DNA from: a virus
IMG/VR virus record: IMGVR_UViG_3300028553_002193
Coordinates: 1 to 36,503 of that record
Length of the DNA stretch: 36,503 nucleotides
Direction: 5' to 3' (one strand)
In this document: positions 1-36,503 of the stretch, in pieces
How positions within the stretch are numbered: the first letter of the stretch is position 1
How the letters are laid out: each line of letters starts with the position of its first letter
The notes under the pieces: generated by a model
Seen by the model: only the letters and a program-made list of their open reading frames with translations
What the model was told of the DNA's origin: nothing
Databases searched by the model: none
Made by a program: the position numbers and the translations under genes

Positions 1-1
1 T

Positions 2-3076: not shown

Positions 3077-3081
3077 AAATT

Positions 3082-3906: not shown

Positions 3907-3910
3907 AGAT

Positions 3911-6088: not shown

Positions 6089-6090
6089 TT

Positions 6091-11604: not shown

Positions 11605-11606
11605 AA

Positions 11607-12542: not shown

Positions 12543-12543
12543 A

Positions 12544-13170: not shown

Positions 13171-13200
13171 AAACTTATGATTTTTAAAAAATAGATTAGA

Positions 13201-16136: not shown

Positions 16137-16523
16137 ATGATTACAACTCCTATTAGTGTGGGTGAACTTTTGGACAAATTATCGATTTTGTCAATCAAAA
16201 AAAACCGATTAACAAATCCTGACAAATTGTTTCAGGTTGAAAAAGAATTTTCTTTTCTATATGAATTGTCCACACAATTTTTAACCGTTAAAGATTATTT
16301 TAACTTATATGACGATTTAGTTTTGATTAACTCTAAACTATGGGAAATAGAAGATAAGTTACGAGTTCGTGAAAAAAATAAAAAATTCGATGAGGAATTC
16401 ATCGAGCTTGCCAGGTCGGTCTATTATACTAATGATGAGAGATTCGAACTGAAAAATAAAATTAATCTTCTGTCAAATTCAGAAATACAAGAGCAAAAAA
16501 GTTACGAAGATTACAAAAACTAA
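16137..16523 (+). CDS. DUF6165-like small protein
   Basis: A 128-residue, charged, mainly helical protein. The opening PISVGELLDKLSILSIKKNR matches the DUF6165 pattern, a family of unknown function often found beside glycosyltransferases. No catalytic residues, signal or membrane segment are visible. Translation starts at ATG directly after the inverted repeat. The three-base gap to phoH, with no promoter in it, suggests the two are one transcript. It may be a coiled-coil adaptor, but no function is claimed. Confidence 0.65.
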   Translation: MITTPISVGELLDKLSILSIKKNRLTNPDKLFQVEKEFSFLYELSTQFLTVKDYFNLYDDLVLINSKLWEIEDKLRVREKNKKFDEEFIELARSVYYTNDERFELKNKINLLSNSEIQEQKSYEDYKN

Positions 16524-16526
16524 TAT

Positions 16527-17848: not shown

Positions 17849-18107
17849 AAATTACTATATCGATTTAGAAAGAATCGAAGAATTCATTGATTTAACTAAT
17901 GTTATCAATGAAGAGCTTAGTGGTAACACTAACGAACATAAAATTAATGTTGTCAAGTTTGAAATGGTAAAGATGATGTTAGAGGTCATTATGACTGAAC
18001 ATCCTGAAGGTGATGAAAAACTCGGAATTAAAAATTCAGAATTATCCATACCATTTAGATTAGCGTTTAACTCGTTACTAAATAAAAAAATTATTAACAA
18101 ATATTAA
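17829..18107 (+). CDS. Hypothetical protein, 92 residues
   Basis: Not recognised. It starts with IPIWNENYYIDLERIEEFI and is mostly predicted helix, acidic, with a MEMV-type hydrophobic stretch in VKMMLEVIM. There is no signal peptide or membrane segment. It overlaps the end of the HAD-like gene by 20 bases and is followed one base later by a glycosyltransferase start, so it belongs to the same transcript. The reading frame is supported by position and coding-like composition rather than by homology. Confidence 0.55.
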   Translation: MIPIWNENYYIDLERIEEFIDLTNVINEELSGNTNEHKINVVKFEMVKMMLEVIMTEHPEGDEKLGIKNSELSIPFRLAFNSLLNKKIINKY

Positions 18108-18108
18108 A

Positions 18109-19164
18109 ATGGACCAACCACAAATAGACAAAGTCAAACTTTCAATTAGTAATCTAAGAGAGAAAAAATCAAAACTATATTTTTTCATTCACGATACTAA
18201 AGGTAATGCCAAATCCTCTATCAAATACATTTATGATTTGGCATTCACACTTAAACGCAGTGGATTTAATTCAATTATCCTACATGAGAAACCCGATTAT
18301 ACAGGAGTTGGTTCATGGTTGGGTGAAGAATATATGACTGAAATTCCACACCAAGTAATCGATGGGCAAAATGTTGAAATTGCACCTGAAGATTTCTTGA
18401 TTGTTCCCGAAATTTTCGGTTTCATGATGGACCAAGTTAAAAACCTACCTTGTGGTAAAATTGTGTTGACACAGTCTTACGCATATATGTTGGAAACTCT
18501 TCAACCTGGTCAGACTTGGAATCAGTATGGATTCTTTAAAACCATTACCACATCTGAAGTACAAAAAGATTACATCAATAAAGTAATGAGAGGTCAATCG
18601 TATGATATCATCGAACCATTTATTTCTGATATTTTCAAAAAAAGAAATTTACCACCACTACCTATTATTGGTATTCACTCTAGAGAACAAGAAGACACTA
18701 TCAATCTTATCAAAACATTCTATCTAAGATTTCCACAATACAGATGGTTTACCTTCCGTGATTTAAGGGGTCTTTCCCAAGAAGAATTTGCTAATGCAAT
18801 TTCGGAGTGTTTCGTTTCAGTTTGGATTGACAGACAAAGTGCCTACGGTACTTTCCCATTAGAATCCATGAAAGTAGGTGTTCCAGTAATTGGTATTACA
18901 CCCAACTTGGTTCCTGAGTGGATGAATGAAAATAACGGTATTTGGATAAAAGATGAAATTCTTCTATCAGACATTATTGCTGATTGGACCCAAAATTGGT
19001 TAGAAGATAACATTTCTCAAGAAATGTATACGAATATGCAAGAAACTGTCGATAAACTTCCGACAAAAGAACAGTTTGAAAATAAAACCATAGATTTATT
19101 CACAGAATATCTCGAATTAAGAGCACAATCTATGGAAGAACAAATCTCTAAATTTAACGATTAA
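18109..19164 (+). CDS. GT4-like glycosyltransferase
   Basis: A 351-residue protein of GT-B shape. The N-terminal domain has KLYFFIHDTKGNAKSSIKYI and a peptide-like linker. The C-terminal domain has PIIGIHSREQEDT as its first strand and the GT4-like donor region SAYGTFPLESMKVGVPVIGI, where the glutamate in PLES corresponds to the E that binds the nucleotide ribose in GT4 enzymes. No membrane anchor. It lies outside the main cassette, directly upstream of a GT-A transferase and the late sigma gene, so it could act on a virion component or host glycan. Donor unknown. Confidence 0.7.
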   Translation: MDQPQIDKVKLSISNLREKKSKLYFFIHDTKGNAKSSIKYIYDLAFTLKRSGFNSIILHEKPDYTGVGSWLGEEYMTEIPHQVIDGQNVEIAPEDFLIVPEIFGFMMDQVKNLPCGKIVLTQSYAYMLETLQPGQTWNQYGFFKTITTSEVQKDYINKVMRGQSYDIIEPFISDIFKKRNLPPLPIIGIHSREQEDTINLIKTFYLRFPQYRWFTFRDLRGLSQEEFANAISECFVSVWIDRQSAYGTFPLESMKVGVPVIGITPNLVPEWMNENNGIWIKDEILLSDIIADWTQNWLEDNISQEMYTNMQETVDKLPTKEQFENKTIDLFTEYLELRAQSMEEQISKFND

Positions 19165-19166
19165 TT

Positions 19167-19973
19167 ATGAACACACCTTTAGACATTACAATTGTATTAC
19201 CAATTAAATCTGCGGTATCCCGAGATTTCGAAGATTACTTCGAAAAAGCGATTACATCGATAAAGAATCAAAAAGTATCTGTAAAAGAACTATTGATTGT
19301 TACTACAACAGAAGAAAAATTAAACAATTATGTTGATGGATTCGATTTTGGAGAAATTAATATGAGAAAAATTGTTTGGGACAAGGAAGCAACCTTTGCA
19401 TCTCAAGTTAACTTTGGTATCGAAAACGCAACTACAAAATGGGTTTCATTTTTTGAGTTTGATGATGAATACTCAACAATTTGGTTTGACAATGTTCGTA
19501 AGTACATGGGATATTACCCAATGGTACAGGCATTCCTACCAGTTGTTGTTGATACCGATGAAAAAGGTACCTTCGCTGGTTTTACAAATGAAGCGGTATT
19601 TGCCGCAAACTTCGCACAAGAAGTTGGTTTTTTAACTAACGATATCCTTCAAGACTATCAAAATTTCCAAACCTCGGGTATGGTTATTCGTAAAGATGTT
19701 ATTGATGATTTTGGTGGTTTTAAATCATCAATCAAATTGACTTTTGTATATGAGTTCTTACTTAGACTTACATACAATTCTACATCAATTATGACAATTC
19801 CAAAACTTGGATACAAACACACCAACATGAGAGAGGGTTCTCTATTTTGGAATTACAAATTCGGTCAAGAAAAAATGTTGGATGAAGAAGTCAAGTTTTG
19901 GGTTCAATCGGCAAAAAAAGAGTACTTCTTCAAAGAAGATAGAACAATAAATTTCCAAGCAAGTAATGATTGA
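19167..19973 (+). CDS. GT-A (GT2-like) glycosyltransferase
   Basis: A 268-residue protein beginning DITIVLPIKSAVSRDFEDYF, the usual GT2 opening. The expected metal site appears as F-E-F-D-D-E in WVSFFEFDDEYS, which fits a DxD-like motif. An acceptor-side segment TSGMVIRKDVIDDFGGFKSS is also GT2-like. It begins two bases after the preceding glycosyltransferase and its stop TGA shares a base with the next ATG (TGATG), so three genes are tightly coupled. With 18109 it makes a second small transferase pair, separate from the large cassette. Substrate unknown. Confidence 0.72.
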   Translation: MNTPLDITIVLPIKSAVSRDFEDYFEKAITSIKNQKVSVKELLIVTTTEEKLNNYVDGFDFGEINMRKIVWDKEATFASQVNFGIENATTKWVSFFEFDDEYSTIWFDNVRKYMGYYPMVQAFLPVVVDTDEKGTFAGFTNEAVFAANFAQEVGFLTNDILQDYQNFQTSGMVIRKDVIDDFGGFKSSIKLTFVYEFLLRLTYNSTSIMTIPKLGYKHTNMREGSLFWNYKFGQEKMLDEEVKFWVQSAKKEYFFKEDRTINFQASND

Positions 19974-20719
19974 TGTTAGAAACATTAACGGCAAATACCG
20001 AAGATGTTTCATCAAAAAAAAGGGGTAGGAAGGCAACTACTACCAACTATTTTGATGTTCGAGAGGAAGATGCGGTAAAAGCCTTCCTTTTAGAGGAAGA
20101 CTATGAGGAAAGAAATAAGATTTATAATGAATTTTTAAAAGACCCTTTGGATAAAATGATTTCATCAATTATCCGAAGGTATAAATTATATCGTAAAGAT
20201 ATGGATTTCAGAGAAATTCATGTGGATACTCATTCATTTTTAATAACTAAAGTTGATAAGTTTCAACCAGCAAAAAACAAAAAGGCATATTCCTATTTTG
20301 GTACCATTTGTAAAAATTATTTGATGGGTCAAATCATCAAAGACCAAAAAGATATGAATCGAAAAGTTTCCTATGAAGATATTTCACTTTCATTGGAACA
20401 AAGACCTGATATGATTTATACTATTGATTCCGACCAATTGGATATGGAGGTTGTAATCAAGAAATATTTGAATGATTTGAGAGAATTTATTAATTCAGAA
20501 TCTTTGTCCGACAACGAAGTAAAATTGGGATATGCCTTAATAGACTTATTCGAAAACTACGAAAGTATTTTTTCAAGCACTGACAATAACAAATTCAACA
20601 AAAATATTATTCTTCTGTCTCTGAGAGAAATGACAAATTTATCAACAAAGGAGATAAGAAATTCGATGAAAAAGTTCAAAAAGTTGTATACTGTTCTACA
20701 AACAAAGATGAAATATTAA
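19973..20719 (+). CDS. gp55-like late-transcription sigma factor
   Basis: About 248 residues from the ATG at 19973, which overlaps the previous stop by one base. Residues about 85-135 (THSFLITKVDKFQPAKNKKAY, then SYFGTICKNYLMGQIIKD) have the shape of sigma region 2 as kept in T4 gp55: a helix, an F-x-P/E-x-K-N-x-x-A-Y turn and a helix leading to charged residues. Region 4 is absent, as in gp55. In T4 this factor directs host RNA polymerase to TATAAATA late promoters together with the sliding clamp and gp33. The leading SKKRGRKATTTNY is basic. It sits right before virion genes, which fits late control. Family assignment by pattern; no alignment was run. Confidence 0.72.
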   Translation: MLETLTANTEDVSSKKRGRKATTTNYFDVREEDAVKAFLLEEDYEERNKIYNEFLKDPLDKMISSIIRRYKLYRKDMDFREIHVDTHSFLITKVDKFQPAKNKKAYSYFGTICKNYLMGQIIKDQKDMNRKVSYEDISLSLEQRPDMIYTIDSDQLDMEVVIKKYLNDLREFINSESLSDNEVKLGYALIDLFENYESIFSSTDNNKFNKNIILLSLREMTNLSTKEIRNSMKKFKKLYTVLQTKMKY

Positions 20720-25014: not shown

Positions 25015-26529
25015 ATGTCAATTTATCGGTCGTATTTCAATAGAAATAATACTTTATTATCGAATCTCTACACCAACACCGCGAGAAACCCCGTGGTACA
25101 ACTCAATTTTGGTAGTAGTGACCTTGTTGTACCCAATTTTGGATTCACCCGTTTTATATTTGATTTGGACTTAGAGGGTCTAGAGGAAATGATTGCCGAT
25201 AAGGTTATCTCCACAGGTTGTACCACAGGGATGACACACACACTTATGATGACAAACACATCATCATTTGACGATGAACTCCTTAACACCAACATGACTG
25301 ACGGAAGAAAAAGAGCAACATCATTTGATTTAATACTCTTTAGAATACCAAAATTCTCAGGAACCACAGGTTCACCACAAATATGGGATGAAGGTGTTGG
25401 ATACGACTATAATGATTTTGGGACAACCCAAAATGGTCTTGCAGGGATGCAATCATCATTGGAACAACTTAACAATAAAAGTTTTTCTTTAAGACCATCA
25501 AACTGGTACCAAACAACTACCGTAACAAATTGGTCTGAACCGGGAATCTACAACAATACAAACTCCCTTACAGGACTTACAGGTCTTAACTACTCATCAA
25601 TTACAATTGTAGATGAACAAAGATTTGAATTGGGTAACGAAGATATCCAATTTGATATGACCAATGAAATTAACGGAATATTAAACGGGTCAATAACAGG
25701 AGTCACAGGATGGGGTATCGCCTATAAACCCGATATCGAAAACATCACAGGTCTAACAGAATCATACTCTGTTGGATTTTTTGGAAAATATACACAGACA
25801 TTCTATCAACCATATCTTCTTACCGATTACGATGATTTGATTAAAGACGACAGAAACCTGTTCCTTAAAAACCAAACAAACAGACTCTACCTTTATGTTT
25901 ACCAAAATGGTGATTTTGCCAATTTAGATAATCTACCAGGTGTAAACATAGAAAACCAAAATGGGGACATCGTACCGGGGGGGTCAGGACTTACAACTTG
26001 TCAGGTCACAAAAGGTGTATATGAGGTTACTGTTCCAAATATTTTTACCAATCAACCTGTACCATGTTTGTTTTATGATATATGGACAGGTCTTACAATC
26101 AACGGACAATCCTTACCTAATGTAACAAACCAATTTGTTCTTCAAGCCTACAGTGCGGGAATTCAAATAGGTAGTAACTCCCAAGAACCGAGTAAATACG
26201 GATTCAGTTTCTACGGTATTTTACAAAATGAAAAAGTACTCAATACAGAAATTAGAAAGATTGGAGTTGTTGCTAAGAAACAATGGACTTCCCAACATCA
26301 GTTGGAAAACATTGACATTTACTATAGAGTTTATGTGAGAGAGGGAACTACTGAAGTTCAGGTACAAAATTGGACCCCTGTAAATCGTACTCCTAATGAA
26401 TATTATTTCATCTTTGATATGAAAGACAAGATTCCGAATGAATATTTTGTTGACATCCGAGTGAATACTAGTGGTGAAAAAGATATTTATAAAGACACAA
26501 TTCAATTCCAAATTGTTAACAAAAAATGA
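25015..26529 (+). CDS. Probable virion structural protein, 504 residues
   Basis: Not recognised beyond position. The 504 residues are rich in Asn, Thr, Gly and Tyr, almost cysteine-free, and predicted mostly beta, which is typical of tail or neck proteins and adhesins. A stretch of ENITGLTESYSVGFFGKYTQ and a C-terminal NVTNQFVLQAYSAGIQIG are of beta type. No enzymatic motif is visible and no collagen-like repeats occur. It begins after a candidate late promoter and its stop overlaps the next start by ATGA. Could be a tail-completion, wedge or fibre-attachment protein. Confidence 0.6.
   Translation: MSIYRSYFNRNNTLLSNLYTNTARNPVVQLNFGSSDLVVPNFGFTRFIFDLDLEGLEEMIADKVISTGCTTGMTHTLMMTNTSSFDDELLNTNMTDGRKRATSFDLILFRIPKFSGTTGSPQIWDEGVGYDYNDFGTTQNGLAGMQSSLEQLNNKSFSLRPSNWYQTTTVTNWSEPGIYNNTNSLTGLTGLNYSSITIVDEQRFELGNEDIQFDMTNEINGILNGSITGVTGWGIAYKPDIENITGLTESYSVGFFGKYTQTFYQPYLLTDYDDLIKDDRNLFLKNQTNRLYLYVYQNGDFANLDNLPGVNIENQNGDIVPGGSGLTTCQVTKGVYEVTVPNIFTNQPVPCLFYDIWTGLTINGQSLPNVTNQFVLQAYSAGIQIGSNSQEPSKYGFSFYGILQNEKVLNTEIRKIGVVAKKQWTSQHQLENIDIYYRVYVREGTTEVQVQNWTPVNRTPNEYYFIFDMKDKIPNEYFVDIRVNTSGEKDIYKDTIQFQIVNKK
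26484..26492 (+). promoter_or_regulatory. TATTTATAA motif inside the end of the 504-residue gene
   Basis: TATTTATAA, 33 bases before the ATG at 26526 and inside the upstream coding sequence. Its flanks repeat those of the 24994 copy (GATATTTATAAAGA), so the sequence is kept beyond the core. Confidence 0.4.
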
Positions 26530-27005
26530 GAAAAGTTATCAGACTAACCGAAACAGATATTAAAAATATAGTTCTAAGAGCTTTAAAAGAGGCGGAACAT
26601 GAACATAACCGTTACATGTTTTTTAGTAACTTAGAACAACTAAAAAGACAGGCTGAGAGGTTATTAGAACTTGACTCAGACGAAATTCATTCTATTTTGG
26701 AGGATGGACACGATTGGGCAGATGACCATATCACCGTTGCTAAAGAAAATCTTGACCAAGTATTTGATTTTATGATGAATGAAATTCACGGGGAAGATGA
26801 CGAAGACATGATGATTGATGATATTGCTGTTATGGAAGGTAGGAAAAAAGCGGGTACTAAATTATGCGCTCGTGGTAAAGCCGCCGCCATGGCGAGGTAC
26901 GACGTATTTCCCAGCGCATATAGTAATGGTCACGCAGTACAAGTCTGTAAAGGTAAAATCAAAGGTTTGGACGGTAAGAAAAGATGTTCAGGAGCCTATT
27001 GTTAA
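26526..27005 (+). CDS. Small protein with N-terminal tag and Cys-containing C-terminal domain
   Basis: A 159-residue protein in three parts. Residues 1-23, beginning RKVIRLTETDIKNIV, form a basic amphipathic helix ending L20-K21-E22|A23, which fits the T4 prohead-protease cleavage pattern (L/I-x-E|A). The middle is acidic and helical. Residues about 106-159 (GRKKAGTKLCARGKAAAMAR, then YDVFPSAYSNGHAVQVCKG) are a compact basic domain with four cysteines ending in CSGAYC, a pattern common in phage proteins but of unknown role. It overlaps the upstream stop by ATGA. It could be a packaged internal protein; this is inference. Confidence 0.7.
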   Translation: MRKVIRLTETDIKNIVLRALKEAEHEHNRYMFFSNLEQLKRQAERLLELDSDEIHSILEDGHDWADDHITVAKENLDQVFDFMMNEIHGEDDEDMMIDDIAVMEGRKKAGTKLCARGKAAAMARYDVFPSAYSNGHAVQVCKGKIKGLDGKKRCSGAYC

Positions 27006-27029
27006 TTTGAAAAGTTTTATTTACCTTTG
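26999..27029 (+). promoter_or_regulatory. Candidate Bacteroidota-type promoter
   Basis: TTG (26999-27001), 20 bases, TACCTTTG (27022-27029), matching the Bacteroidota primary-sigma consensus TTG-N(17-23)-TAnnTTTG. Transcription would start near 27036, just before the ATG at 27042. It is the clearest host-type promoter seen in the window. Confidence 0.45.
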
Positions 27030-27041
27030 TTGTCAAATACA

Positions 27042-27449
27042 ATGGTAATGAAAAATCTCAAACACACATTTCGTCGTTTTATTCAAAAACAGGCTTTGAA
27101 ATTATTTCGGTATCTGAATACCGAACAAGAGAGGTCAATTTATGAACGGGACTGTATTGCTATTTGTAAAAAGTTTATTTATGAACCCGATTCAATAATG
27201 TTATTAACACCCATTTCTGGTAAAAGATACATTAGAAGTGAAAACAATCAAATTTTTATTATTTTAGAATCACATCGTGTAAAAATTATCAATCATGTAT
27301 ATGCTTATGATGTACTTATGAATGACAGGTCATGGAACCAATTAATCAAACTTTTTGATAACGAAGTTGAAAAACGAAGAGAGGATTTCGAAAAACAAAT
27401 CACGAAAAATATTAAAACTTCACTCCAAAAAATTATTGCCGAAAAATGA
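27042..27449 (+). CDS. Hypothetical protein, about 135 residues
   Basis: Not recognised. Starts at ATG 27042 (27048 is a possible alternative), just after a host-type promoter. The N-terminus is strongly basic (KNLKHTFRRFIQKQALKLF), followed by an acidic/hydrophobic middle (DSIMLLTPISGKRYIRSENN) and a long charged C-terminal helix. There are two cysteines and no membrane segment. The separate promoter and its place at the edge of the virion block suggest an accessory gene. It overlaps the next gene by ATGA. Confidence 0.6.
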   Translation: MVMKNLKHTFRRFIQKQALKLFRYLNTEQERSIYERDCIAICKKFIYEPDSIMLLTPISGKRYIRSENNQIFIILESHRVKIINHVYAYDVLMNDRSWNQLIKLFDNEVEKRREDFEKQITKNIKTSLQKIIAEK

Positions 27450-27799
27450 AACATCCATTTCACACTCTATACTATACAGGTCTTTCCGTTCTAATTTCAC
27501 TATTAATTTTTGGTGGATTATTAATTTATAATCTTTCAAATATTGTACACCTTATACCGAAAGAAAAAACATTTAAAAAACATTCAGATATATTAATGAA
27601 CCCTATTGTGTTGGAAACATTTACACCAAAACCTTTTATCGAGGTCAAGGTGTCTAAAGTTGAACCAAAAATTGAATCTAATCTCGAGAGCCCTAAACCA
27701 AAAGTTGTTGGTGACTCAATACCAAAATCAACCCCTAAGGACTCAAATCATATAACGGAACAAATGCGACAAGTAAAAGGAACTAACGATTCAATATAG
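27446..27799 (+). CDS. Single-pass membrane protein
   Basis: A 117-residue protein with one strong transmembrane segment at about residues 10-30 (TGLSVLISLLIFGGLLIYNL) and a long proline- and lysine-rich, soluble tail (about 45-117). No lipobox is seen, so it is probably an anchored protein with a single membrane helix. Spanin- or holin-like roles are possible from shape alone, but no family was recognised. It is coupled to the preceding gene by ATGA. Its end overlaps the stop of the opposite-strand gene at 27783 by 17 bases. Confidence 0.6.
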   Translation: MKHPFHTLYYTGLSVLISLLIFGGLLIYNLSNIVHLIPKEKTFKKHSDILMNPIVLETFTPKPFIEVKVSKVEPKIESNLESPKPKVVGDSIPKSTPKDSNHITEQMRQVKGTNDSI

Positions 27800-28412
27800 A
27801 CTCTTTGAGAACTTTTTGAATTAAGTCCCTTAATCCCTCATTTTTTTTCTTTGGTTTGTAAGAGGTCATAGTTGGTTTGTTACCTTTTCCAACTTTTGGG
27901 TCCTTTTTCTCAGCCGCTCTTTTTTGTGCACAAGCCGCTTTCTTCTCGGAATCAGACATCTTAGAAGCAACTCCCGCAGCTCTACATTTAGGGTATCCTT
28001 TAGATTCCCCTTCAGGTCGACCGCAAGGAGGATGTCCACCACCTTCTTTTTTTCTACAAATATTAACCCAAGGACCTGAAGGTTGTTTACTACCTTTAGG
28101 TTTTTTTTTAGTACCAAACCAAACCGCCAAATCCTCTTTTAAAATATCTTCTTTAAAAATTTTCTTTCTCATATTTTCAACTTTTTTAACATTTGATTTA
28201 GTTTGTTTTTCATCTTTGGCAATTTCTTGTTTTGTTTTTTTTATCTCACCATCATACGAATCAAAGGCGGTTCCATTATTGATATAACCCGAAACTTTCT
28301 CGGTGTAAGGTATTAGTTCTTTATCTTTCCAAATTCGTGGAGTAATATTCAATTTACCTTTAAAAACACCATCGCTCGATGATGTAGTACTCTCGTTGAT
28401 TTTTATTTTCAT
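27783..28412 (-). CDS. DUF5872-like basic cysteine protein
   Basis: A 209-residue protein, very lysine-rich. Residues about 95-185 hold a compact pattern I recognise from phages and giant viruses (DUF5872-like): VWFGTKKKPKGSKQPSGPW, ICRKKEGGGHPPCGRPE, GYPKCRAAGVASKMSD, KKAACAQKR. The spacing of the four cysteines suggests a metal-binding or disulfide-like knuckle. The C-terminal end L194-R-D-L-I-Q-K-V-L-K-E204|S is an amphipathic helix ending in L-x-E|S, like the N-terminal tag of the 26526 protein. No enzymatic motif. A DNA-binding or packaged-protein role is possible. The family name is from memory. Confidence 0.65.
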   Translation of the reverse strand: MKIKINESTTSSSDGVFKGKLNITPRIWKDKELIPYTEKVSGYINNGTAFDSYDGEIKKTKQEIAKDEKQTKSNVKKVENMRKKIFKEDILKEDLAVWFGTKKKPKGSKQPSGPWVNICRKKEGGGHPPCGRPEGESKGYPKCRAAGVASKMSDSEKKAACAQKRAAEKKDPKVGKGNKPTMTSYKPKKKNEGLRDLIQKVLKESILNR

Positions 28413-28424
28413 AATCCTATATTT

Positions 28425-28433
28425 TAATAAATA
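28425..28433 (-). promoter_or_regulatory. TATTTATTA motif (candidate late promoter, divergent gap)
   Basis: On the - strand TATTTATTA lies 12 bases before the start at 28412. The same bases read on the + strand as TAATAAATA, 11 bases before the + start at 28445, so one A/T-rich element (28425-28440) could serve both diverging genes. Confidence 0.4.
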
Positions 28434-28444
28434 TTTAAATTTTT

Positions 28445-28681
28445 ATGCAAGACTTAAATTCTTTACCTTTATTCGATAGAATTCAAATTCAAAATTCAGA
28501 AGATTTTGATAATTTAATAGACGCTCTGACAAAGGAACAGGGAGATTATATTATTAAAATTGCTCTTGAGAAGGCGTTCAATTCAGGTATCTATAGTTTA
28601 AGTGAAAGTGAAATACTTTCAAAATCTCTCAGATTAAAAAATAAAAATACTGAAACAATTTCAGAAAATGACACTGAATGA
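28445..28681 (+). CDS. Hypothetical protein, 78 residues
   Basis: Not recognised. Acidic, helical protein beginning DLNSLPLFDRIQIQNSEDFD, with no signal or membrane segment. It diverges from the 28412 gene and overlaps the next start by 14 bases. Small and of unknown role; coding is supported by the coupled pair and the terminator that follows. Confidence 0.55.
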   Translation: MQDLNSLPLFDRIQIQNSEDFDNLIDALTKEQGDYIIKIALEKAFNSGIYSLSESEILSKSLRLKNKNTETISENDTE

Positions 28682-28853
28682 GATAAGTAAAAGAATAATA
28701 GATGGGGAATACATTTTAACCGAAGTTGTCAGAAATGGACACAAACCTTTTTTTGGTGATGAATATGAAAAAATAAGAACTGAAGTTGGTGTATTAAGGT
28801 GTCTATATTTTGGTGAAGATTCACCATATTGTAATTCAAGATATAAAAAATAA
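28668..28853 (+). CDS. Hypothetical protein, 61 residues
   Basis: Not recognised. Sixty-one residues containing LNEISKRIIDGEYILTEVV and two cysteines in RCLYFGEDSPYC. It follows the 78-residue gene with a 14-base overlap and ends three bases before a strong hairpin terminator, so it is the last gene of this short + strand transcript. Confidence 0.55.
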   Translation: MTLNEISKRIIDGEYILTEVVRNGHKPFFGDEYEKIRTEVGVLRCLYFGEDSPYCNSRYKK

Positions 28854-28855
28854 AA

Positions 28856-28877
28856 AAAGGGGACCGAAGTCCCCTTT
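28856..28877. terminator. Bidirectional intrinsic terminator
   Basis: Perfect 9-base stem AAAGGGGAC / GTCCCCTTT with a CGAA tetraloop. On the + strand CTTTTTG follows; on the - strand a run of Ts follows. It lies between convergent genes (28853 + and 28897 -) and can end both transcripts, including the major capsid message. Confidence 0.85.
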
Positions 28878-28896
28878 CTTTTTGTAGTTTGAGATA

Positions 28897-30711
28897 TTAT
28901 CTCAATTCTCTCAAGTCGAACGTTCTAACACCATCAACAGTGATTCTACCATAGAACCTGTTATTTACAACCTTCTTAGCGTATCTGGTCATGATACCCT
29001 TGATAGGTGTAAAGTTGAATGGGTTGTACATTGTTGGAGTGAGTTGTAAAGGTACATATGGAGCGTAGATGTATCCAGTATCCAATAATGAAGTACCTTT
29101 GTGTCCTAACAACACCTGGTTTGCAGGGAAGTAAGGGTCACGGTAAACTTGGTATCTACCAGCCAATGTTCCAACTCTCTCAATACCCATGTTATATTGG
29201 TCTTGCTCAGGAGCTGCGTTTGATACGTGGAAGTACTCCAAGTCATCAAAGATTGCAGAAACCTCAGAAGATACAACAATCCAGTTTGCGCCTCCTCTAA
29301 GAGTTGACTTGTGGATTTGAGCTGAAATTTGGTTGATTGCAGTGATAAGAGTTTGGTTCCAGTCCTTTTGAGTGTAAGGAGTTGTACCAGCGTTAAATCT
29401 CTTCCATCCGTTGTAGTCCCAACGAAGGTTCCAAGAAGCAGCTTTTCTCAAGTCTCTTAAGATTTCGCGGTCGATTTCAGCAGCCACTTGCTCAGACAAC
29501 AAAGCTGTCAATTCAGCTTCAGCGTCGATGTTGTGGAACGCAGCTACGTCCTGAGCCATTTCAGGTGACCATTGAGCTCTAAGTTTTCTTTCAGTAACCG
29601 AAACAGTCACAGACTGAAGGTCAAAAGAAACTTCACCAATTTTATCTTCAAATTCAAGATTCTTGTAGATTCTGTAAGTTGCTAAGAACGCGTTGTTGTT
29701 AGCGGTTGAAGAGGAGAATGTTGAACCCGTGTACCCGTCGAGTGATGAATCACCACAAGAAATACAAACAGGAACTTGAAGGTCAACTTCGAGGTAGATT
29801 TTACCTTCAGCGTCACAAACATTGTAGTAAGTACCACCGTCAGTCAAACTATTTGGGAATGCTAAAGGTACATTCTCACCATACTCAACAATACCCTTAC
29901 CGTATCTTTGTGTTACAACTCTGAACAAGTAGTTGTTCGAAGTGTTTCCAGAAGTGTAAGCGTTTCCAGCAGCACCACGGATTTGAAGGTCAGTTAAGAA
30001 TTCTTCGGTATCCATCGGTTGACCGTTTGGTCCGATAAGTTGACCAGCACCTGCAGATGCAAATCCCGATAACATAATAAGAACTTTTCTGTAGTTGTCA
30101 GACGCATATGCAGAAACAACTAATTGGTCAGCTAGCCAAGCAACTGTTCTTGTTCCACCATCAACTCCTGATGTAACACCTGGAGTTAATGCCGAAAATG
30201 AACCTTTAGAGTAGTCGTAAAGACCTGGAGGGTCTAAAGCAGGTTCGTTACCTTCGTAGAATCTATCGTAAAGGTCTTTTTGTGTGTTATAGTCATAACC
30301 ACTGTTTGGGGTTTGACCAGCAGCTGCATTAGGTGCTCCAAAAGGTGCAAAGTGCTCAGTTGTTCCTGGTTGATATGACTGAATGTTTGGTACGAAGTAG
30401 AACAACTTACCGATAGGAAGGTTCATTGCTTGTACAGAAACGATGTCGTTAGCCAAAAGCTTAGAGAATACTCTCCTTACAATTGGGAATACAACAGTTT
30501 CGAATGAACCGGTATCAGCAGTCGAAGCCGCTTCGTTAATCAAATATGACGCTTGGTTTTCATACAACTGTGCGATATTTTCTTTTAGGTGTCCGTTAAG
30601 CCCGTCAAGGAAACCTAACTTGTCCCATTTGTTAATTGTATCTTCTTTGATAACTTTAAGGTGCTTAAGACCGATGTTACCAACAAGACCACTTTCTAAT
30701 AATGCTCCCAT
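28897..30711 (-). CDS. 23: Major capsid protein (T4 gp23-like)
   Basis: A 604-residue protein of the T4 gp23 type. Residues 1-60 form the cleaved N-terminal peptide, ending YLINE60|AAS, which fits the prohead-protease rule L/I-x-E|A. The mature part begins with the motif FETVVFPIVRRVFSKLLAND, then SVQAMNLPIG, strongly gp23-like; KLRAQWSPEMAQDVAAFHN and LTPTMYNPFNF are further HK97-fold family parts. T4 gp23 is 521 residues, so this one has insertions in its middle. It is the product of a T4-order head module. The leader just before ATG is A-rich (AAAATTAAAATG-like), as expected for a highly expressed Bacteroidota gene. Confidence 0.88.
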   Translation of the reverse strand: MGALLESGLVGNIGLKHLKVIKEDTINKWDKLGFLDGLNGHLKENIAQLYENQASYLINEAASTADTGSFETVVFPIVRRVFSKLLANDIVSVQAMNLPIGKLFYFVPNIQSYQPGTTEHFAPFGAPNAAAGQTPNSGYDYNTQKDLYDRFYEGNEPALDPPGLYDYSKGSFSALTPGVTSGVDGGTRTVAWLADQLVVSAYASDNYRKVLIMLSGFASAGAGQLIGPNGQPMDTEEFLTDLQIRGAAGNAYTSGNTSNNYLFRVVTQRYGKGIVEYGENVPLAFPNSLTDGGTYYNVCDAEGKIYLEVDLQVPVCISCGDSSLDGYTGSTFSSSTANNNAFLATYRIYKNLEFEDKIGEVSFDLQSVTVSVTERKLRAQWSPEMAQDVAAFHNIDAEAELTALLSEQVAAEIDREILRDLRKAASWNLRWDYNGWKRFNAGTTPYTQKDWNQTLITAINQISAQIHKSTLRGGANWIVVSSEVSAIFDDLEYFHVSNAAPEQDQYNMGIERVGTLAGRYQVYRDPYFPANQVLLGHKGTSLLDTGYIYAPYVPLQLTPTMYNPFNFTPIKGIMTRYAKKVVNNRFYGRITVDGVRTFDLRELR

Positions 30712-30730
30712 TTTAATTTTTGTTTTTAGG

Positions 30731-30738
30731 AATTTATA
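30731..30738 (-). promoter_or_regulatory. T4-type late box TATAAATT before the capsid gene
   Basis: On the - strand TATAAATT, 7 of 8 to the T4 late box TATAAATA, lies 19 bases before the capsid start at 30711. No Shine-Dalgarno follows; the leader is A-rich. It overlaps the untranslated gap after the scaffold gene. Confidence 0.4.
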
Positions 30739-30741
30739 TTT

Positions 30742-32265
30742 TTAGAGTTTATTCATCAAATCCTTAATTCTTAAGAATTGTGGATTCTCATATGTTTTAG
30801 ACTCAATCAAGGTTGTAGATGAACCAGAAGTTTTTGCTGTGTTCAACTGTCTTTCAACACTTTCAGAAATATTTTTCGTTTCAGTGTTGGAAAGTTCATC
30901 CTTGACAGTTTTGTAGAGTTGTTTTGATTCTTTAAGTGATTCTACAGAATCAAATCTTCTCAGAATATTTATTTTTTCTTTTTTGGTAGTGGAATGCTCA
31001 GTAAACAATCTTGTAGCATATGCCAAGTTCGAGTTAAAAACAGCAACTTCGTTGAGTTTTTCTCTAAAGACATTAAGAGCCTTTCTGTACTCTTCATTCT
31101 TTTCTCTTAACAAATTTAATTCTACTTCAACAGCTTCTACTTTTACACCTTTATCACCATAAACATAATTTCTGTTATTTGTGATACCTTTTCTTAACCC
31201 TCTACCTTCTTTTGACCCCATACCATAAGTTCTAGCAGCCTCTTTTGTTTCCTCCTTGGTTTCATAGTCTTTCTTGCCAGGATTAGTTTCAGATTTGTCA
31301 CCTTTGTTACCACCGAACTTTCCTTCGTAGTCTTTGTAGTGTCCATCTTTACCTTCACCAGCTTTCTTTTCAACACCGTCTACTTTCTTACGTCTGTATT
31401 CGCGTTTCTTAGAATCTTCTTCCATTTCACCCTCTTTAAATTCAAATTTTGCTTTACCAGTACCCATAGTTTTAGGTCCAGCCTTTTTGTGGTCATCAAA
31501 TCCTTTTTTTGGTAAAGTACTGTCGTACTTAAATTTAGGATGACCCATACCTACGCCTTTTGGTTTTACAGTCATTTTAGCTTCTTCAAGGTTATATTCC
31601 TCATGTGAGGATTCTCCCATCTCTTCCATAGATTCTTCATCCATGTACTCAGAAAGGTCTAATTCTTCCTCATCCATTTCTATCTCATACATGATTTCGT
31701 CTTCTTCCATAGTTTCAGACGACGAATAAAGAGCATCTAAAACAGCATCTAAGTCGGGGTCTTCTTCAACATCAAGTTCATTGAATTCCATTTCTTGTTC
31801 TTCCATTTCCATCTCTTCCATCATATCCTCTTCCTCATCCATTTCAGACTCGTCAAGTTTTACAATGTATTCAACATCTTCATTATCGTCGGTAATGTGA
31901 ACCATACCTTCGTCTTTTACAACTACAATTCCATCTTCAGGTCCCATAGCTTTAAAAGCCTTAATAACTTCATCATCAGACATATCTGTCATATCGATAG
32001 TTTCTTCATCCGAATCAAAATCCATATTGAATTCATTATCAGAATCTTCCATATTATCAACATCGCTATCCATGTCAAAATCCATGTCTAGCTCAGTATC
32101 AACTTCAACCTCATCTTCTTGTTCGGAAAGAGATTCCTTTACTAACTGACTGATTTCTTCCTTCATTGTAGAAGCAAGTATTCCTTTTGCGTTTTCGGCA
32201 ATGACTTCTTCAACATTTCTCATTTGAATAAGTGCCTCTTCAACTAAATTTTTAGTTTTTTGCAT
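30742..32265 (-). CDS. Scaffold/prohead core protein (gp22-like, acidic)
   Basis: A 507-residue protein with strongly divided charge: residues 45-235 are extremely acidic (long runs of D, E and M), residues about 235-365 are Lys/Gly-rich and basic, and 370-507 is a coiled-coil-like helix (LLREKNEEYRKALNVFREKL). Its place between protease and major capsid protein is that of T4 gene 22, the main scaffold core protein, which is degraded by the protease. The C-terminal helices support that. It is much longer than T4 gp22 (269). The family is inferred from position and C-terminal part, since acidic stretches alone are not diagnostic. Confidence 0.72.
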   Translation of the reverse strand: MQKTKNLVEEALIQMRNVEEVIAENAKGILASTMKEEISQLVKESLSEQEDEVEVDTELDMDFDMDSDVDNMEDSDNEFNMDFDSDEETIDMTDMSDDEVIKAFKAMGPEDGIVVVKDEGMVHITDDNEDVEYIVKLDESEMDEEEDMMEEMEMEEQEMEFNELDVEEDPDLDAVLDALYSSSETMEEDEIMYEIEMDEEELDLSEYMDEESMEEMGESSHEEYNLEEAKMTVKPKGVGMGHPKFKYDSTLPKKGFDDHKKAGPKTMGTGKAKFEFKEGEMEEDSKKREYRRKKVDGVEKKAGEGKDGHYKDYEGKFGGNKGDKSETNPGKKDYETKEETKEAARTYGMGSKEGRGLRKGITNNRNYVYGDKGVKVEAVEVELNLLREKNEEYRKALNVFREKLNEVAVFNSNLAYATRLFTEHSTTKKEKINILRRFDSVESLKESKQLYKTVKDELSNTETKNISESVERQLNTAKTSGSSTTLIESKTYENPQFLRIKDLMNKL

Positions 32266-32286
32266 AAAAATTGTTTTTAATTTACC

Positions 32287-32295
32287 TTATAAATA
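32287..32295 (-). promoter_or_regulatory. TATTTATAA motif (candidate late promoter)
   Basis: On the - strand TATTTATAAGG lies 21 bases before the scaffold start at 32265, followed by an A/T-rich leader. Same core as at 24994, 26484 and 20755. Confidence 0.45.
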
Positions 32296-32362
32296 GTTCT
32301 GTAAATAAAAAAATCCGTTTATAAACCCCCTTCTTTACGAAAAAGATTTAAAACGGACAAAA

Positions 32363-32384
32363 AAAAGGTGGAAAACCACCTTTT
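32363..32384 (-). terminator. Intrinsic terminator after the DUF4494-like gene
   Basis: On the - strand AAAAGGTGG, TTTT loop, CCACCTTTT, then a T run. It begins three bases after the stop of the 69-residue gene at 32388. It would end that transcript, or most of it, before the scaffold gene, so scaffold and capsid have their own promoter (32287). Confidence 0.8.
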
Positions 32385-32387
32385 AAG

Positions 32388-32597
32388 TTATTCGATTACT
32401 TCGTCAATTTTGCTTTCCACAACTGAAACGATACGCCATTCGTGTTGGAACCCCGTATATTTCTTTGTTACTTTAGCTTCGACATCGGTAACTGAGAAAC
32501 CATTAACAAGTTTCTCTTCTCTGATTTTTTTAAATCGTCCTGAATTTTCATCAGGTAAATCATAAACCACTTTAGCTACAAAAAATTTCTCATCCAT
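32388..32597 (-). CDS. DUF4494-like small protein
   Basis: A 69-residue protein with the DUF4494 outline: FFVAKVVYDLPDENSGRFKK, then EEKLVNGFSVTDVEAKVTKK and WRIVSVVESKIDEV. The family, small and of unknown function, is found mainly in Bacteroidota and their phages, supporting the host guess. It lies between the protease and the scaffold, is probably cotranscribed from the protease side, and is followed immediately by a terminator. No catalytic residues are visible. Confidence 0.7.
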   Translation of the reverse strand: MDEKFFVAKVVYDLPDENSGRFKKIREEKLVNGFSVTDVEAKVTKKYTGFQHEWRIVSVVESKIDEVIE

Positions 32598-32616
32598 AAT
32601 TATTAATTCATTTTAG

Positions 32617-33333
32617 TTAACGATTTAAATAATCGGTTAATTTTTTCATTAAATCAACTGACTTGTTCATTCCTGAGTCAGAAATTTTTTGATTTTTTTC
32701 TTCATCGAGGTTTTCCTCGTACATTGACCTCTCTTCGGGGGAGTTAAATAGGTAAGCACCAGGGGTTGACGGGGAAGAGACCAAGTCAAAGCAAATTAAC
32801 TCAAAATCGTCTTGAACTTCATTTTGTTCTCCTTTTTTTGCCAATGACCCTACACCACGAGATGAAACACCCATTGTCACACCTTGTCTAATGAGGTTTG
32901 CGGCGATATCTCCTTTAGTTGATACAATACCACTCTCGTGGAATCCAGGTGATGTTAGAAGTTTTAATTTACCCATAAGAATGTGACCATCCCACCATAT
33001 GTCTGTAATAAGGTGTGATACTCTATCCAAATCAATCAAAGATGATTCTGGGTGATTTAACTCAGAGGTTGATAAACCTTTTTTGATTGCGGTTTTGTAT
33101 CTATCGGATTCTCTTTTTAATATTCTTTCAGGGTATACTCTTCCATTTCTATTTGGGACACCATATTTTTGAAGAACAGCATAAAACTCAAATGGGTTTC
33201 TATAATCCATTTGTTTTTGTTCCTTCAAAAAAGATTCGTTAAGTGGGTCAGATGGTGAAATGTAACCTGCGTCCATTTCGATTAAAATCCCCTTACCTGT
33301 TTCTCTTGGCCCAAGAATGCGTAAATCTTTCAT
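32617..33333 (-). CDS. 21: Prohead core protease (T4 gp21-like, peptidase S80)
   Basis: A 238-residue protein with the S80 family outline: VPNRNGRVYPERIL (59-72), the histidine of S90-E-L-N-H94-P, a second block SSLIDLDRVSHLI and the serine block G155-V-S-S-R-G-V-G162, where the nucleophile is S157 or S158. In T4, gp21 matures the prohead, cutting after L/I-x-E. Here L31-N-E33|S34 near the N-terminus could be a self-cleavage site. It is normal in length (T4 gp21 is 212). Together with the LxE sites in the capsid protein this shows an active maturation system. Confidence 0.85.
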   Translation of the reverse strand: MKDLRILGPRETGKGILIEMDAGYISPSDPLNESFLKEQKQMDYRNPFEFYAVLQKYGVPNRNGRVYPERILKRESDRYKTAIKKGLSTSELNHPESSLIDLDRVSHLITDIWWDGHILMGKLKLLTSPGFHESGIVSTKGDIAANLIRQGVTMGVSSRGVGSLAKKGEQNEVQDDFELICFDLVSSPSTPGAYLFNSPEERSMYEENLDEEKNQKISDSGMNKSVDLMKKLTDYLNR

Positions 33334-33345
33334 TATATTGTTTTA

Positions 33346-33354
33346 AAATAAATA
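33346..33354 (-). promoter_or_regulatory. TATTTATTT motif (candidate late promoter)
   Basis: On the - strand TATTTATTT, 12 bases before the protease start at 33333; the same 12-base spacing is seen for 24994/25015 and 28425/28412. Confidence 0.35.
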
Positions 33355-33359
33355 TAATG

Positions 33360-33812
33360 TTAGTTCATAGTTTTTATTTTTATCTTTTCTTTACTCGAAG
33401 TAAATGTGAAGTAATCATTTTTAATAACACAATCTTTATAAATTTCTCTTATAATTTTTTTTATTGCATCTTTAAGAATTGAACCTTTGAAATCTATTTC
33501 TGTTTTTGTAAAAAGATTTATCTCAAGATTCATAAAAGATTTTTTACCTAATTGAATCCCACTAGTTCTAAGGTCTAAATCAACAATAAATTTTTCTGCG
33601 AAAAGTTCTCTATTAATACTCTCATAAACACTGTGTTTAACATTTCTTGAAAGACCACCCACTATACGGTCCCAATTTTCCATTTCGACTTTTGGGGCTA
33701 CCCATGTTTGCATGTTTATGTAAAGTGATTTTAGCTGTTTTGAATCTACTGTTCCGTATTGAGTTTTAATTGATTCATATTGGTTAATCTTAACCGTTTT
33801 TCCTTTTTTCAT
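33360..33812 (-). CDS. Hypothetical head-module protein, 150 residues
   Basis: Not recognised. A basic 150-residue protein (KKGKTVKINQYESIKTQYG, LRTSGIQLGKKSFMNLEINL), rich in charged beta/alpha pattern, with no membrane segment. It lies between bS21 (opposite strand) and the protease. In T4 the genes between portal and protease are 67 and 68, small prohead core proteins; position only suggests a related role. A leader motif close to TATTTATAA (GATTTATAA at 33843-33851) precedes it. Confidence 0.55.
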   Translation of the reverse strand: MKKGKTVKINQYESIKTQYGTVDSKQLKSLYINMQTWVAPKVEMENWDRIVGGLSRNVKHSVYESINRELFAEKFIVDLDLRTSGIQLGKKSFMNLEINLFTKTEIDFKGSILKDAIKKIIREIYKDCVIKNDYFTFTSSKEKIKIKTMN

Positions 33813-33842
33813 TCATATTCAGATTGGAATCTGTTTATTTTT

Positions 33843-33851
33843 TTATAAATC
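33843..33851 (-). promoter_or_regulatory. GATTTATAA motif (weak candidate late promoter)
   Basis: On the - strand GATTTATAA, one mismatch to TATTTATAA, followed by AAAA so that TATAAAAA is 7 of 8 to the T4 late box; 30 bases before the start at 33812. Confidence 0.3.
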
Positions 33852-33890
33852 ATAACAAACTTTTACCCCAAATCCAAATATTTCTATTAT

Positions 33891-34076
33891 ATGTTAATAG
33901 TACAGGTAGACAAAAATATTGAAAAAGCACTCAAGATGCTTAAGTCTAAAGTAATTAAAACCAAACAGAATCAGAAACTAAATTCTTTAAAAGAATACCA
34001 AAAAAAATCTGTTAAAATAAGAGCCGAAAAAATCAAAGCTTCTTATGTTCAAAAGTTTAAGAATCAAGAAGAATAG
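33891..34076 (+). CDS. rpsU: Phage-encoded ribosomal protein bS21
   Basis: A 61-residue basic protein matching bS21: MLIVQVDKNIEKALKMLKSK, a KTKQNQKLNSLKEYQKKSV middle, and RAEKIKASYVQKFKNQEE at the end. bS21 lies beside the anti-Shine-Dalgarno end of 16S rRNA. Phages of Bacteroidota and Pelagibacter are known to carry it. A tyrosine (Y52) lies where, by my recollection, Flavobacteria use a bS21 tyrosine to cover the anti-Shine-Dalgarno. It is the only + strand gene in the head module and overlaps the opposite stop at 34057 by 20 bases. It has no visible Shine-Dalgarno; its leader is A/T-rich. Confidence 0.85.
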   Translation: MLIVQVDKNIEKALKMLKSKVIKTKQNQKLNSLKEYQKKSVKIRAEKIKASYVQKFKNQEE

Positions 34077-34764
34077 ACTCTTCTAATCTTTTTAACTTTA
34101 CATAATTAACTTGGTCAAATTTTTCAATCTCAATCCTTTCAATCGTTTCGTTAATTTTGGATTGAATATCCGATTCCTCTTGTTTGTTAAGTAATACTTT
34201 CAATTTGTTAATTGTTGATTCTTTAAGTGTTGTGTACTCGATTTCTAAATCTTCATTCTTTGATGCCAAAATATAGAATACCTCTTTTTTTGTTGCCTCG
34301 TCTAAACTCTCAATATATTTTCCAATAGTTTGATTGGCAATCAAAACCATTGATTTTAAAGGAATTTTAGGGGTTTCATTTAAACCTTTTGTGGTTAACA
34401 TAAGATTATCGATTAACATTTTCTTTGACGACAACCTTTCGTGAATATTCACATTTTCAAAATATACCAAATTATCAATATTTTGGTAAATATTTGGGGA
34501 TTTTTCCCCATTTTTTGGTAATGAAGTATTTTCTAATAAATGTCTAATTACATTTACAGACTCTTCTAAGAATTCTTTAGCATCGTTTTCAGATAAACCT
34601 TGTGGTAAATTAAGGTCATCATAAATGGAATAAACCTTTGAAAATGATTTATTTTTCAAAACATTATGTTTGAATTCTTTTAATGTTTGCTTGAAAGTAG
34701 AGGAATCTTTGTAAGACTCTACCAAGTTTTTTTCGATAATAGATTTGATTTGTCCGAAAGTCAT
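34057..34764 (-). CDS. Hypothetical head-module protein, 235 residues
   Basis: Not recognised. A helical, charged 235-residue protein. Its N-terminus TFGQIKSIIEKNLVE16|S17 is an amphipathic helix with an L-x-E|S ending, like the tags of the 26526 and 27783 proteins. It ends LKRLEESILLDS, again L-x-E|S-like. It sits directly after the portal gene, in the place of T4 genes 67/68 (prohead core), so it may be a core protein processed by the protease. No enzymatic motif or membrane segment. A candidate promoter sits at 34783-34791. Confidence 0.6.
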   Translation of the reverse strand: MTFGQIKSIIEKNLVESYKDSSTFKQTLKEFKHNVLKNKSFSKVYSIYDDLNLPQGLSENDAKEFLEESVNVIRHLLENTSLPKNGEKSPNIYQNIDNLVYFENVNIHERLSSKKMLIDNLMLTTKGLNETPKIPLKSMVLIANQTIGKYIESLDEATKKEVFYILASKNEDLEIEYTTLKESTINKLKVLLNKQEESDIQSKINETIERIEIEKFDQVNYVKLKRLEESILLDS

Positions 34765-34782
34765 GAGGTCGTATTTATTCTC

Positions 34783-34791
34783 TAATAAATA
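34783..34791 (-). promoter_or_regulatory. TATTTATTA motif (candidate late promoter)
   Basis: On the - strand TATTTATTA, 18 bases before the start at 34764 and directly after the portal stop. A second A/T box, AATAAATA (34779-34772 on the - strand), is closer (7 bases) and is 7 of 8 to the T4 late box. Confidence 0.35.
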
Positions 34792-36503
34792 TTAGGAATT
34801 TAACAACTTATCTAACTCGTCTTCTATTTTACCTAAACTTTGTTGTGCAATACCTAAATTTAAAAACTGATTACCATACAAACCAGTTTCTATCAAAATA
34901 TTCATATCTTTATTTTGTGTTGATTCTGGCGTAATTTCACCCTCTTCAGGGGTTGTTGCACCCAAGTCTGGTGTTTCACCAGCTAAGTCACCACCAAGGT
35001 CTCCACCAAGGTCCGCACCAACATCAAAACCACCACCACCAAACGCAGCAGCGGCTGGTTCAGAGGTTTCACCAGGAGGTGCTTGTGGCGCCCCTTCACC
35101 AGGTTTATTTCCATACAACTTATCAAGTTGGTCAAACAATCCTGTTTTAGAGATTACTGTCGGAGTGTTTTTTAATTCCTCACCAATGGCTCTTTCCATT
35201 CTCTGTTGTAGAAGGTCAGTTCTGATTTCATCATCTGACCAATTGAAAATGTGTTTCTTAGCCCAAGTAGATGAAGCTGGTTGAATACCATTTCCGGGGT
35301 CTGAAACTAAATCACGATACAAAAGAACTTTTTCTTTCCATATATCAACCTTCAGTAAGTCAGCTTGTGTTGATGGATTTGTAAGACCTAAAGTAAAATT
35401 AGAAATCTCTTCTTCAAAACCAAGTAGAAATAAATGGATAATTGCAACCTTATTAAGTTCTTGCAACATCGACTTTTGAATTCTATTAATGGTTCTCGCA
35501 AATCGGATATCCATCAATGCTAAAGTTTTACCGTCACCGACAACTTCTTCAAAACCTAAAAAGGCCTTAGGAATTCTAAGTGCAGTAACAAGTTTTTTCT
35601 GAATGTATTCAATGTCAGCAATCTCTGAAAGATTCTGTGCTCCAGGCAAAGTTTCAATTGGAGATGGTTGTGCTGGGTCTCTAACAGGAATAAAGAAATC
35701 TTGGTCTACAGCCATTTGGTTAAACCTCATATCAACATTGCCTGTTTTGGAATCAACAATTTGTTCCCTTTTGAACTTGTTAGCAACACGTTGTACATAA
35801 GCCTCGACATCATCATCGTTCATGTTTCCAACATAAACTTTGAAAATTCTTCTTTCAGGGGCTCGTGAGGTACGATAAATTAACATCGCATCTTCAGATA
35901 ACAAAAGTTGTTTCCAAATACGGCGAGATTTTTCCAACATTGAGGTACCATATGGGAGTTTTCTGTCGTCCCCTAATAATCTGAAGTGAGCAATTTCCCA
36001 AGTTTGAAATTCCATATTTTGGGTTTTCCAAGTAAACCTTAACCCTTTGTCTTCAGTATCATTTTTTGTGACACCAACCGATGCATTTCTTGTTGACAAA
36101 CCTTGTTCAAATCTCTCAATTTCGATGTTAGGTAGTTGTTGACATCCAACAACACCTTTTTCAGGGTCTAATCTCATATAAACGAAATTATCACCGTACT
36201 TACAGGTGTTTCTTGTCCACATGGGTAGATTAGTATTGATGTCTAAAGAATTATTAAATAAATCTGATAAAACGGATTTAATTCTTTTTGATTCAGAATA
36301 AATTTGAAGAATTTGACCATCTTCGTTAGGTGTGGTAGATTCTTCAGCGTAGATATCTAAGGCCGCAGAAATTTCCGGAGTATTATGTGAAAAAATAGTG
36401 TCGGTGGCAAAATTTTTATAACCAGGAACTGTCAAGTCATACACAGGAATAACACCATAAGGTTCAATAGATTCAATTTTGTGATTTAAATTGATTACAT
36501 CAC
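34792..36503 (-). CDS. 20: Portal protein (T4 gp20-like), 5' partial and intein-interrupted
   Basis: The open frame reaches the window edge, so the portal N-terminus lies beyond it. The first 40 visible codons (36503-36382) are the C-terminal end of an intein; portal sequence resumes at Thr (36381-36379) as TPEISAALDIYAEESTTPNE, the gp20-type first conserved block. Then come MWTRNTCKYGDNFVYMRLD, FRLLGDDRKLPYGTSMLE and VTALRIPKAFLGFEE with the portal's typical EIADIEYIQKKL. The visible C-extein is about 529 residues. Near the C-terminus there is a Gly/Pro-rich stretch with DLGGDLGGDLAG. The GTG at 36444 is an internal valine codon of the intein, not a start. Confidence 0.85.
   Translation of the reverse strand, partial: DVINLNHKIESIEPYGVIPVYDLTVPGYKNFATDTIFSHNTPEISAALDIYAEESTTPNEDGQILQIYSESKRIKSVLSDLFNNSLDINTNLPMWTRNTCKYGDNFVYMRLDPEKGVVGCQQLPNIEIERFEQGLSTRNASVGVTKNDTEDKGLRFTWKTQNMEFQTWEIAHFRLLGDDRKLPYGTSMLEKSRRIWKQLLLSEDAMLIYRTSRAPERRIFKVYVGNMNDDDVEAYVQRVANKFKREQIVDSKTGNVDMRFNQMAVDQDFFIPVRDPAQPSPIETLPGAQNLSEIADIEYIQKKLVTALRIPKAFLGFEEVVGDGKTLALMDIRFARTINRIQKSMLQELNKVAIIHLFLLGFEEEISNFTLGLTNPSTQADLLKVDIWKEKVLLYRDLVSDPGNGIQPASSTWAKKHIFNWSDDEIRTDLLQQRMERAIGEELKNTPTVISKTGLFDQLDKLYGNKPGEGAPQAPPGETSEPAAAAFGGGGFDVGADLGGDLGGDLAGETPDLGATTPEEGEITPESTQNKDMNILIETGLYGNQFLNLGIAQQSLGKIEDELDKLLNS
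36382..36503 (-). other. Intein C-terminal segment in the portal gene (partial)
   Basis: Forty codons before the splice point show intein C-terminal blocks: PYGVIPVYDLTVPGYKNFAT (block F, with D and the V-P-G turn) and DTIFSHN (block G, the H-N end). The first C-extein residue is Thr, a permitted +1 nucleophile. These features are those of a Hint-type splicing domain. The rest, including any endonuclease domain and the N-terminal cysteine or serine, lies outside the window. Confidence 0.85.

Follow-up and report, generated by a model that had tools for sequence, protein, structure and literature searches.

Results and Discussion

Portal locus and truncated intein

The window, meaning the whole 36,503-base virus record that was analysed, is cut at its end inside an intein. 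The minus-strand open reading frame (ORF) at 36501..34792 runs off the contig end, and its first residues, DVINLNHKIESIEPYGVIPVYDLTVPGYKNFATDTIFSHN, are followed directly by TPEISAALDIY. The Pfam domain Portal_T4 (PF07230) begins at residue 40 of this ORF, and the portal, head maturation protease and major head protein genes succeed one another on the minus strand, arranged as in the T4 head module (Table 1). By its domain and its head-module neighbours, the ORF encodes a T4-type portal protein, gp20. A family scan of seven window ORFs next to the portal gave no PHROG match for three of them. A long series of plus-strand ORFs (2-16090) resembled sugar or surface-polymer genes, presumably glycosyltransferase-, epimerase-, aminotransferase- and dehydrogenase-like.

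The Intein_splicing profile (PF14890) matched residues 6-40 of the portal ORF at profile positions 120-155 of 155 (E 1.7e-4, 21.8 bits), the only match to this family in the window at E values up to 0.1. The score fell under the curated cut-off of 35.8 because the window holds only the last 40 residues of the intein.

Table 1. Features of the portal locus and insertion sites in T4-type portal genes. A slash marks the junction; sites are listed in their order along the portal.
Feature	Position or junction	Strand	Remarks
Two bases of the preceding intein codon	36502..36503	-	Contig ends within the intein
Intein C-terminal end, 40 residues (blocks F and G), last two His-Asn	36382..36501	-	Same as the end of the full L090 intein
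GTG, possible false portal start for gene callers	36442..36444	-	Val codon of intein block F (PVYDLTV)
Thr+1, residue 1 of the C-extein	36379..36381	-	Thr in 75/75 contigs with complete intein
C-extein, portal gp20, TPEIS to stop, 529 aa	34792..36381	-	Portal_T4 E 9.8e-74; phrog_213 portal E 4.3e-62
Head maturation protease (T4 gp21-like)	32617..33333	-	phrog_207 E 1.7e-43
Major head protein (T4 gp23-like)	28897..30711	-	phrog_138 E 7.1e-68
Intein, full extent	36382-37341 (L090 record numbering)	-	280 residues beyond the window
N-extein	37342-37617 (L090 record numbering)	-	In frame with the intein
Site A	MEY/TPE
Site I	EES/..E		Two records
Site B	RNT/CKYG
Site C	YGT/SML
Site D	WKQL/..ED		Two records
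Site E	IYRT/SRAPE		Two records
Site G	before VDQD
Site F	LPGA/.NL		Two records
Site H	GDGK/..L		One record

Complete intein in a longer record

A longer record, IMGVR_UViG_3300028571_002036 (L090; 84,612 bases), continues beyond the cut end of the window. It was 100% identical to the window over the 1712 portal bases and over window positions 26504-36503 and 1-20000, at the same coordinates, these being the stretches compared. Its portal ORF of 941 residues, starting at the ATG at 37617 (L090 record numbering), comprises in a single frame an N-extein of 92, an intein of 320 and a C-extein of 529 residues. The N-extein ends in YDYESMEY, and the intein begins with CIHGDTKIATPDGF and closes with TDTIFSHN. 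This intein carries Cys1 (beyond the window), TWEH in block B, an HNH motif and a C-terminal His-Asn. PF14890 scored 52.9 bits, above the cut-off, with no second match in the record at E <=0.01. The ORF upstream of the portal is terminase-like, as judged by its position, which is that in annotated records.

The full intein bore out the initial annotation, made on the window, which had read the 40 codons at 36382-36501 as intein blocks F and G followed by Thr and had placed the insertion exactly at a conserved portal segment; frame and coordinates were right. Extension past 36503 recovered the block A Cys and an N-extein upstream in the same frame, and the homing endonuclease looked for there was represented by the HNH motif. 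The warning against starting the portal at the GTG at 36444, which would give an ORF of 550 residues, was likewise justified: this GTG encodes the Val of block F and would be a false portal start, and the L090 ORF begins at its upstream ATG.

Three contigs (the window, L173 and L175) stop at the identical base inside the intein, window position 36503. Such a shared end would be compatible with a contig-end chimera, or with a split intein that has its N-half at another locus. It is better explained by a 79-base stretch that is identical between two intein lineages and in which the common end falls; the break is probably an assembly branch point. The ORF is moreover unbroken in L090 and, counting all contigs, in 75 distinct ones, which leaves a chimera or split intein very improbable.

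Empty sites and conserved residues

The portal query, which included the 40-residue intein end and was thus biased, if at all, towards intein-bearing matches, returned at least 600 rows in viral contigs, of which the best 80 loci were kept. Among these best 80 of the matches listed, 74 were empty, with ESMEY joined exactly to TPEIS, and six held a whole intein. The comparison of the exteins with intein-free homologues that had been proposed for the window therefore gave the expected precise join. It also bears on the reading in which the YDLTVPG segment belongs to the mature portal of a window lineage without any intein. Only 40 residues of the element lie in the window, and they score below the Pfam cut-off; yet L090 holds the full intein, and YDLTVPG is absent from those 74 of the best 80 listed relatives. 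The empty sites already refute this reading, whose probability is practically nil.

The intein query found 113 relatives, the best 80 of which (55-100% identical) were kept; in all 80 the C-junction HN/TPEI lay at site A, and in 75 the N-junction did so too. Together the two queries gave 160 loci on 154 contigs, six intein-bearing contigs having been fetched twice (L002-L004 and L007-L009 are the same contigs as L086-L088, L091, L107 and L108). The sample is biased, its halves being the best 80 drawn by the portal query and by the intein query. Residue counts were taken over the 75 distinct contigs in which the intein is complete; L121, L129, L137 and L155 (contig ends) and L162 (deletion and frameshift) were left out as incomplete.

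Residue 1 was Cys in 54 and Ser in 21 of these 75 contigs, and His-Asn at the end and Thr at +1 were found in every one (75/75 each). Intein length was 319-322 residues in 52 contigs and 380-390 residues in 23, the extra stretch of the longer form being located after the HNH motif. Across 43 distinct site A inteins, T71, H74, H319 and N320 were unvaried (43/43), as were H148, N155, N156, H169 and H173, which we take to be the His and Asn residues of the HNH motif. Five proteins spanning full inteins all matched PF14890 (E 3.7e-12 to 3.6e-17) and HNH_3 (E 8e-5 to 1e-3), the latter in each case below the curated 24.8 bits. The Cys or Ser at position 1, the TxxH of block B, the terminal His-Asn with Thr+1 and the in-frame insertion with empty homologues support assignment to class 1; the sequences show the anatomy of the element, its exact empty sites and the conservation of its predicted catalytic residues.

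Among the 43 distinct inteins, block B had the Gly-His form (TYGH or THGH) in 10/10 with Ser1 vs. 0/33 with Cys1, a pairing that appears to represent two splicing types at one site. In L162 (~3070), the site A intein had a deletion of ~112 bases and a frameshift relative to L130; its appearance is not that of a split intein, and it may be an assembly error or a dead allele. Outside the viral contigs, the genome contig search for the intein gave one relative, with 43% identity, and in the phage collection 67 records matched the L002 query, every one at <60% identity and none at >=60%.

Fold and position in the portal

The structure predicted for the intein (pLDDT 68.5) has a HINT domain formed by residues from both ends. 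Compared with the DnaB, RecA and DnaE inteins it gave a VIA Z of 17.1 and an rmsd of 2.3-2.4 Å over 131 residues, so the site A intein is predicted to have the HINT fold. Site A corresponds approximately to N84/N85 of T4 gp20, in the wing domain, a position read from a MAFFT alignment of seven sequences with 24% identity; HMMER aligned the portal with T4 gp20 only from portal residue ~244-250 onward. An AlphaFold2 structure of the portal itself (25 rows) reached a pLDDT of 39.6 and was set aside.

Mobility of the intein

The window lineage (L090) and L002 shared 94.6% identity over the 960-base intein DNA, vs. 82.3% over the N-extein and 79.2% over the C-extein, with the step in identity falling at the intein edges. 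Four-fold sites were alike at 82/103 positions in the intein vs. 86/196 in the exteins (p 2.3e-9). This pattern points to a recent lateral transfer of the intein independently of its flanks, as homing predicts. Of seven pairs, most of them chosen after the identity ranking was seen, four had inteins significantly more identical than their exteins (L090/L002, L095/L097, L158/L163 and L105/L116), and three showed no such excess (L125/L126, L093/L097 and L124/L140; p 0.4-0.6).

Nearly identical portals also carried unlike inteins: the exteins of L125/L157 and L123/L163 were 94 and 93% identical, respectively, and their inteins 75%, each pair contrasting a short Cys1 with a long Ser1 intein. In these two pairs and in L096/L136 and L145/L116, the first 210 codon columns of the intein DNA were 64-92% identical, and three of the four pairs dipped at columns 60-90; after the HNH motif identity dropped to 44-67% or a gap, and at the end it was 81-84%. 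The drop might reflect an exchange of the DNA-binding part.

Intein presence and absence were mapped on an extein tree of 116 of 119 rows (a quick tree of 387 columns with a long-branch warning, near-copies and short-flank rows having been dropped beforehand). Six changes were required, at least four of them forced by starred branches, compared with 35.8 in shuffles. Presence is therefore strongly clustered, and much of the spread was vertical or among near kin. Intein-free siblings with flanks 92-93% identical were found for three intein-bearing contigs (L008/L028, L007/L034 and L119/L071).

The clustering on the portal tree could also reflect an intein acquired long ago and passed on vertically, with an HNH that is past homing, a reading in line with the HNH_3 scores below the curated cut-off, the three of seven pairs showing no excess of intein identity, and the site A intein of a far relative, L187 (245 residues), which by eye seems to have lost the HNH. 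We regard it as doubtful, as the HNH residues were unvaried in 43/43 inteins and, in the window's own pair (L090/L002), the intein is far more alike than its flanks. On balance, the window almost certainly ends in a mobile class 1 intein with an HNH motif, inserted between ESMEY and TPEIS of the gp20 of an uncultured T4-type phage.

Proposed splicing and homing

For this mobile intein, we infer splicing and DNA cutting from the sequences. The portal would be made as a 941-residue precursor, in which Cys1 would begin an N-S acyl shift and the branch would then move to Thr+1; Asn320 would cyclise and the exteins would ligate, giving a portal of ~621 residues. When relatives with an intein-free portal allele co-infect, the intein would cut the matching site in that allele, and repair would copy the intein into it. 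The initial annotation had further held that splicing is required for head formation. In T4 the portal is needed to start head assembly (PMC4493910), and from that role the requirement is soundly inferred for an intein-bearing phage.

The same T4 role would place any delay in splicing at a control point (PMC4493910), so that a conditional, regulatory intein, splicing slowly or responsively, might time the release of portal subunits and let heads start late; site A is filled in 80 contigs. This is improbable, since there is no sign of any switch, the intein-free siblings at 92-93% flank identity imply that related phages manage without the intein, and the transfer signature suits a selfish element.

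The portal gene as an intein hotspot

Further inteins at other portal sites were carried by nine ORFs of more than 1100 residues among the 160 loci. With L082, L083 and L187 added to these loci, nine insertion sites were distinguished, in the order A, I, B, C, D, E, G, F and H, their junctions set by eye and by pattern (Table 1). Three inteins interrupt each of the portals of L157, L124 and L083. The longest array, in L187 (G004:C32:3100-9059), has four inteins of 245, 136, 433 and 455 residues, which make up 1269 of the 1879 residues of the ORF (68%). The MAG to which the L187 contig was assigned is labelled Candidatus Wolfebacteria; an upstream ORF in L178 that by eye is terminase-like makes a phage origin of the contig probable.

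Relatives of the site B intein were found in 12 contigs, with the C-junction pattern in 11 and the N-junction pattern in seven. Site A was empty in five of these contigs and filled in three, the patterns giving no call in four; because it is both empty and filled in this set, the portal sites fill independently. At site C, the intein of L125 has 363 residues and the version in L157 has 150, 95% alike in the best segment; the middle part of the latter was apparently lost, which we read as loss of the endonuclease.

Four inteins at sites B and G (L096:4138-5409, L187:1736-3034 and 3500-4864, and L157:5275-6450) begin with Pro in place of Cys or Ser, and their block F includes a Cys (VYCMEV, VYCLEA or VYCMTV). 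They resemble class 3 inteins, of which the block F Cys is a feature (PMC7664689), a likeness based on Pro1 and, within the WCT motif, on this Cys. Judging from these sequences, T4-type portals are an intein hotspot, with class 1 inteins bearing HNH, mini-inteins and Pro1 types, and up to four per chain. One could imagine that, in a hotspot filled independently by different inteins, the 12 subunits per ring would entail dozens of splicings per head, acting together as an assembly timer, an idea we consider doubtful.

Comparison with known systems

The site A family is a splicing element moved between environmental phages via the gene that T4 needs for head building. A single gene family displays empty, occupied and dissimilar alleles along with probable loss of the endonuclease and probable change of the DNA-binding part, and provides a source of new inteins, with 43 distinct ones at one site. 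It also carries a warning for annotation: gene callers can take the GTG of block F for the portal start, and in phages of this kind portal markers will go undetected or be disrupted.

The DnaB, RecA and DnaE inteins (6frg, 1mi8, 2in0 and 4kl5) have the HINT fold in common with the predicted site A structure (VIA Z 16-17) but interrupt other exteins, and their solved chains of 139-158 residues leave no room for an inserted enzyme part. Two phage inteins share an HNH-like stretch, recognized by eye: that of L084, a 735-kb phage record (28% identity over 320 residues), and that of Bacillus phage SP-15 (L085; 31% identity over 200 residues). Both sit in other genes, the former by eye a ribonucleotide reductase, the latter a protein annotated as hypothetical. 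The huge-phage records LR756508 (L083) and LR756511 (L082) are unannotated in the phage collection. They too have inteins in a T4-type portal, three and one, respectively, but all at sites other than A, and site A of L083 is empty.

Portal (PORT) inteins are known from cluster C1 mycobacteriophages, six of them in Table 1 of PMC5050341. These lie in a phage portal protein, as does the window intein, but in another phage group, the comparison covering the kind of protein interrupted. Four close intein sites within one gene have been described for the haloarchaeal MCM helicase (PMC10643990), resembling the situation in the portal gene, although MCM is a helicase and the portal a virion protein. 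The open-licence literature searched yielded neither a description of a T4-type gp20 interrupted by an intein nor a counterpart among virion proteins described as a multi-intein hotspot. Inteins with HNH and inteins in phage portals are already known (PMC5050341); the portal occupied at multiple sites is less ordinary than the site A intein itself.
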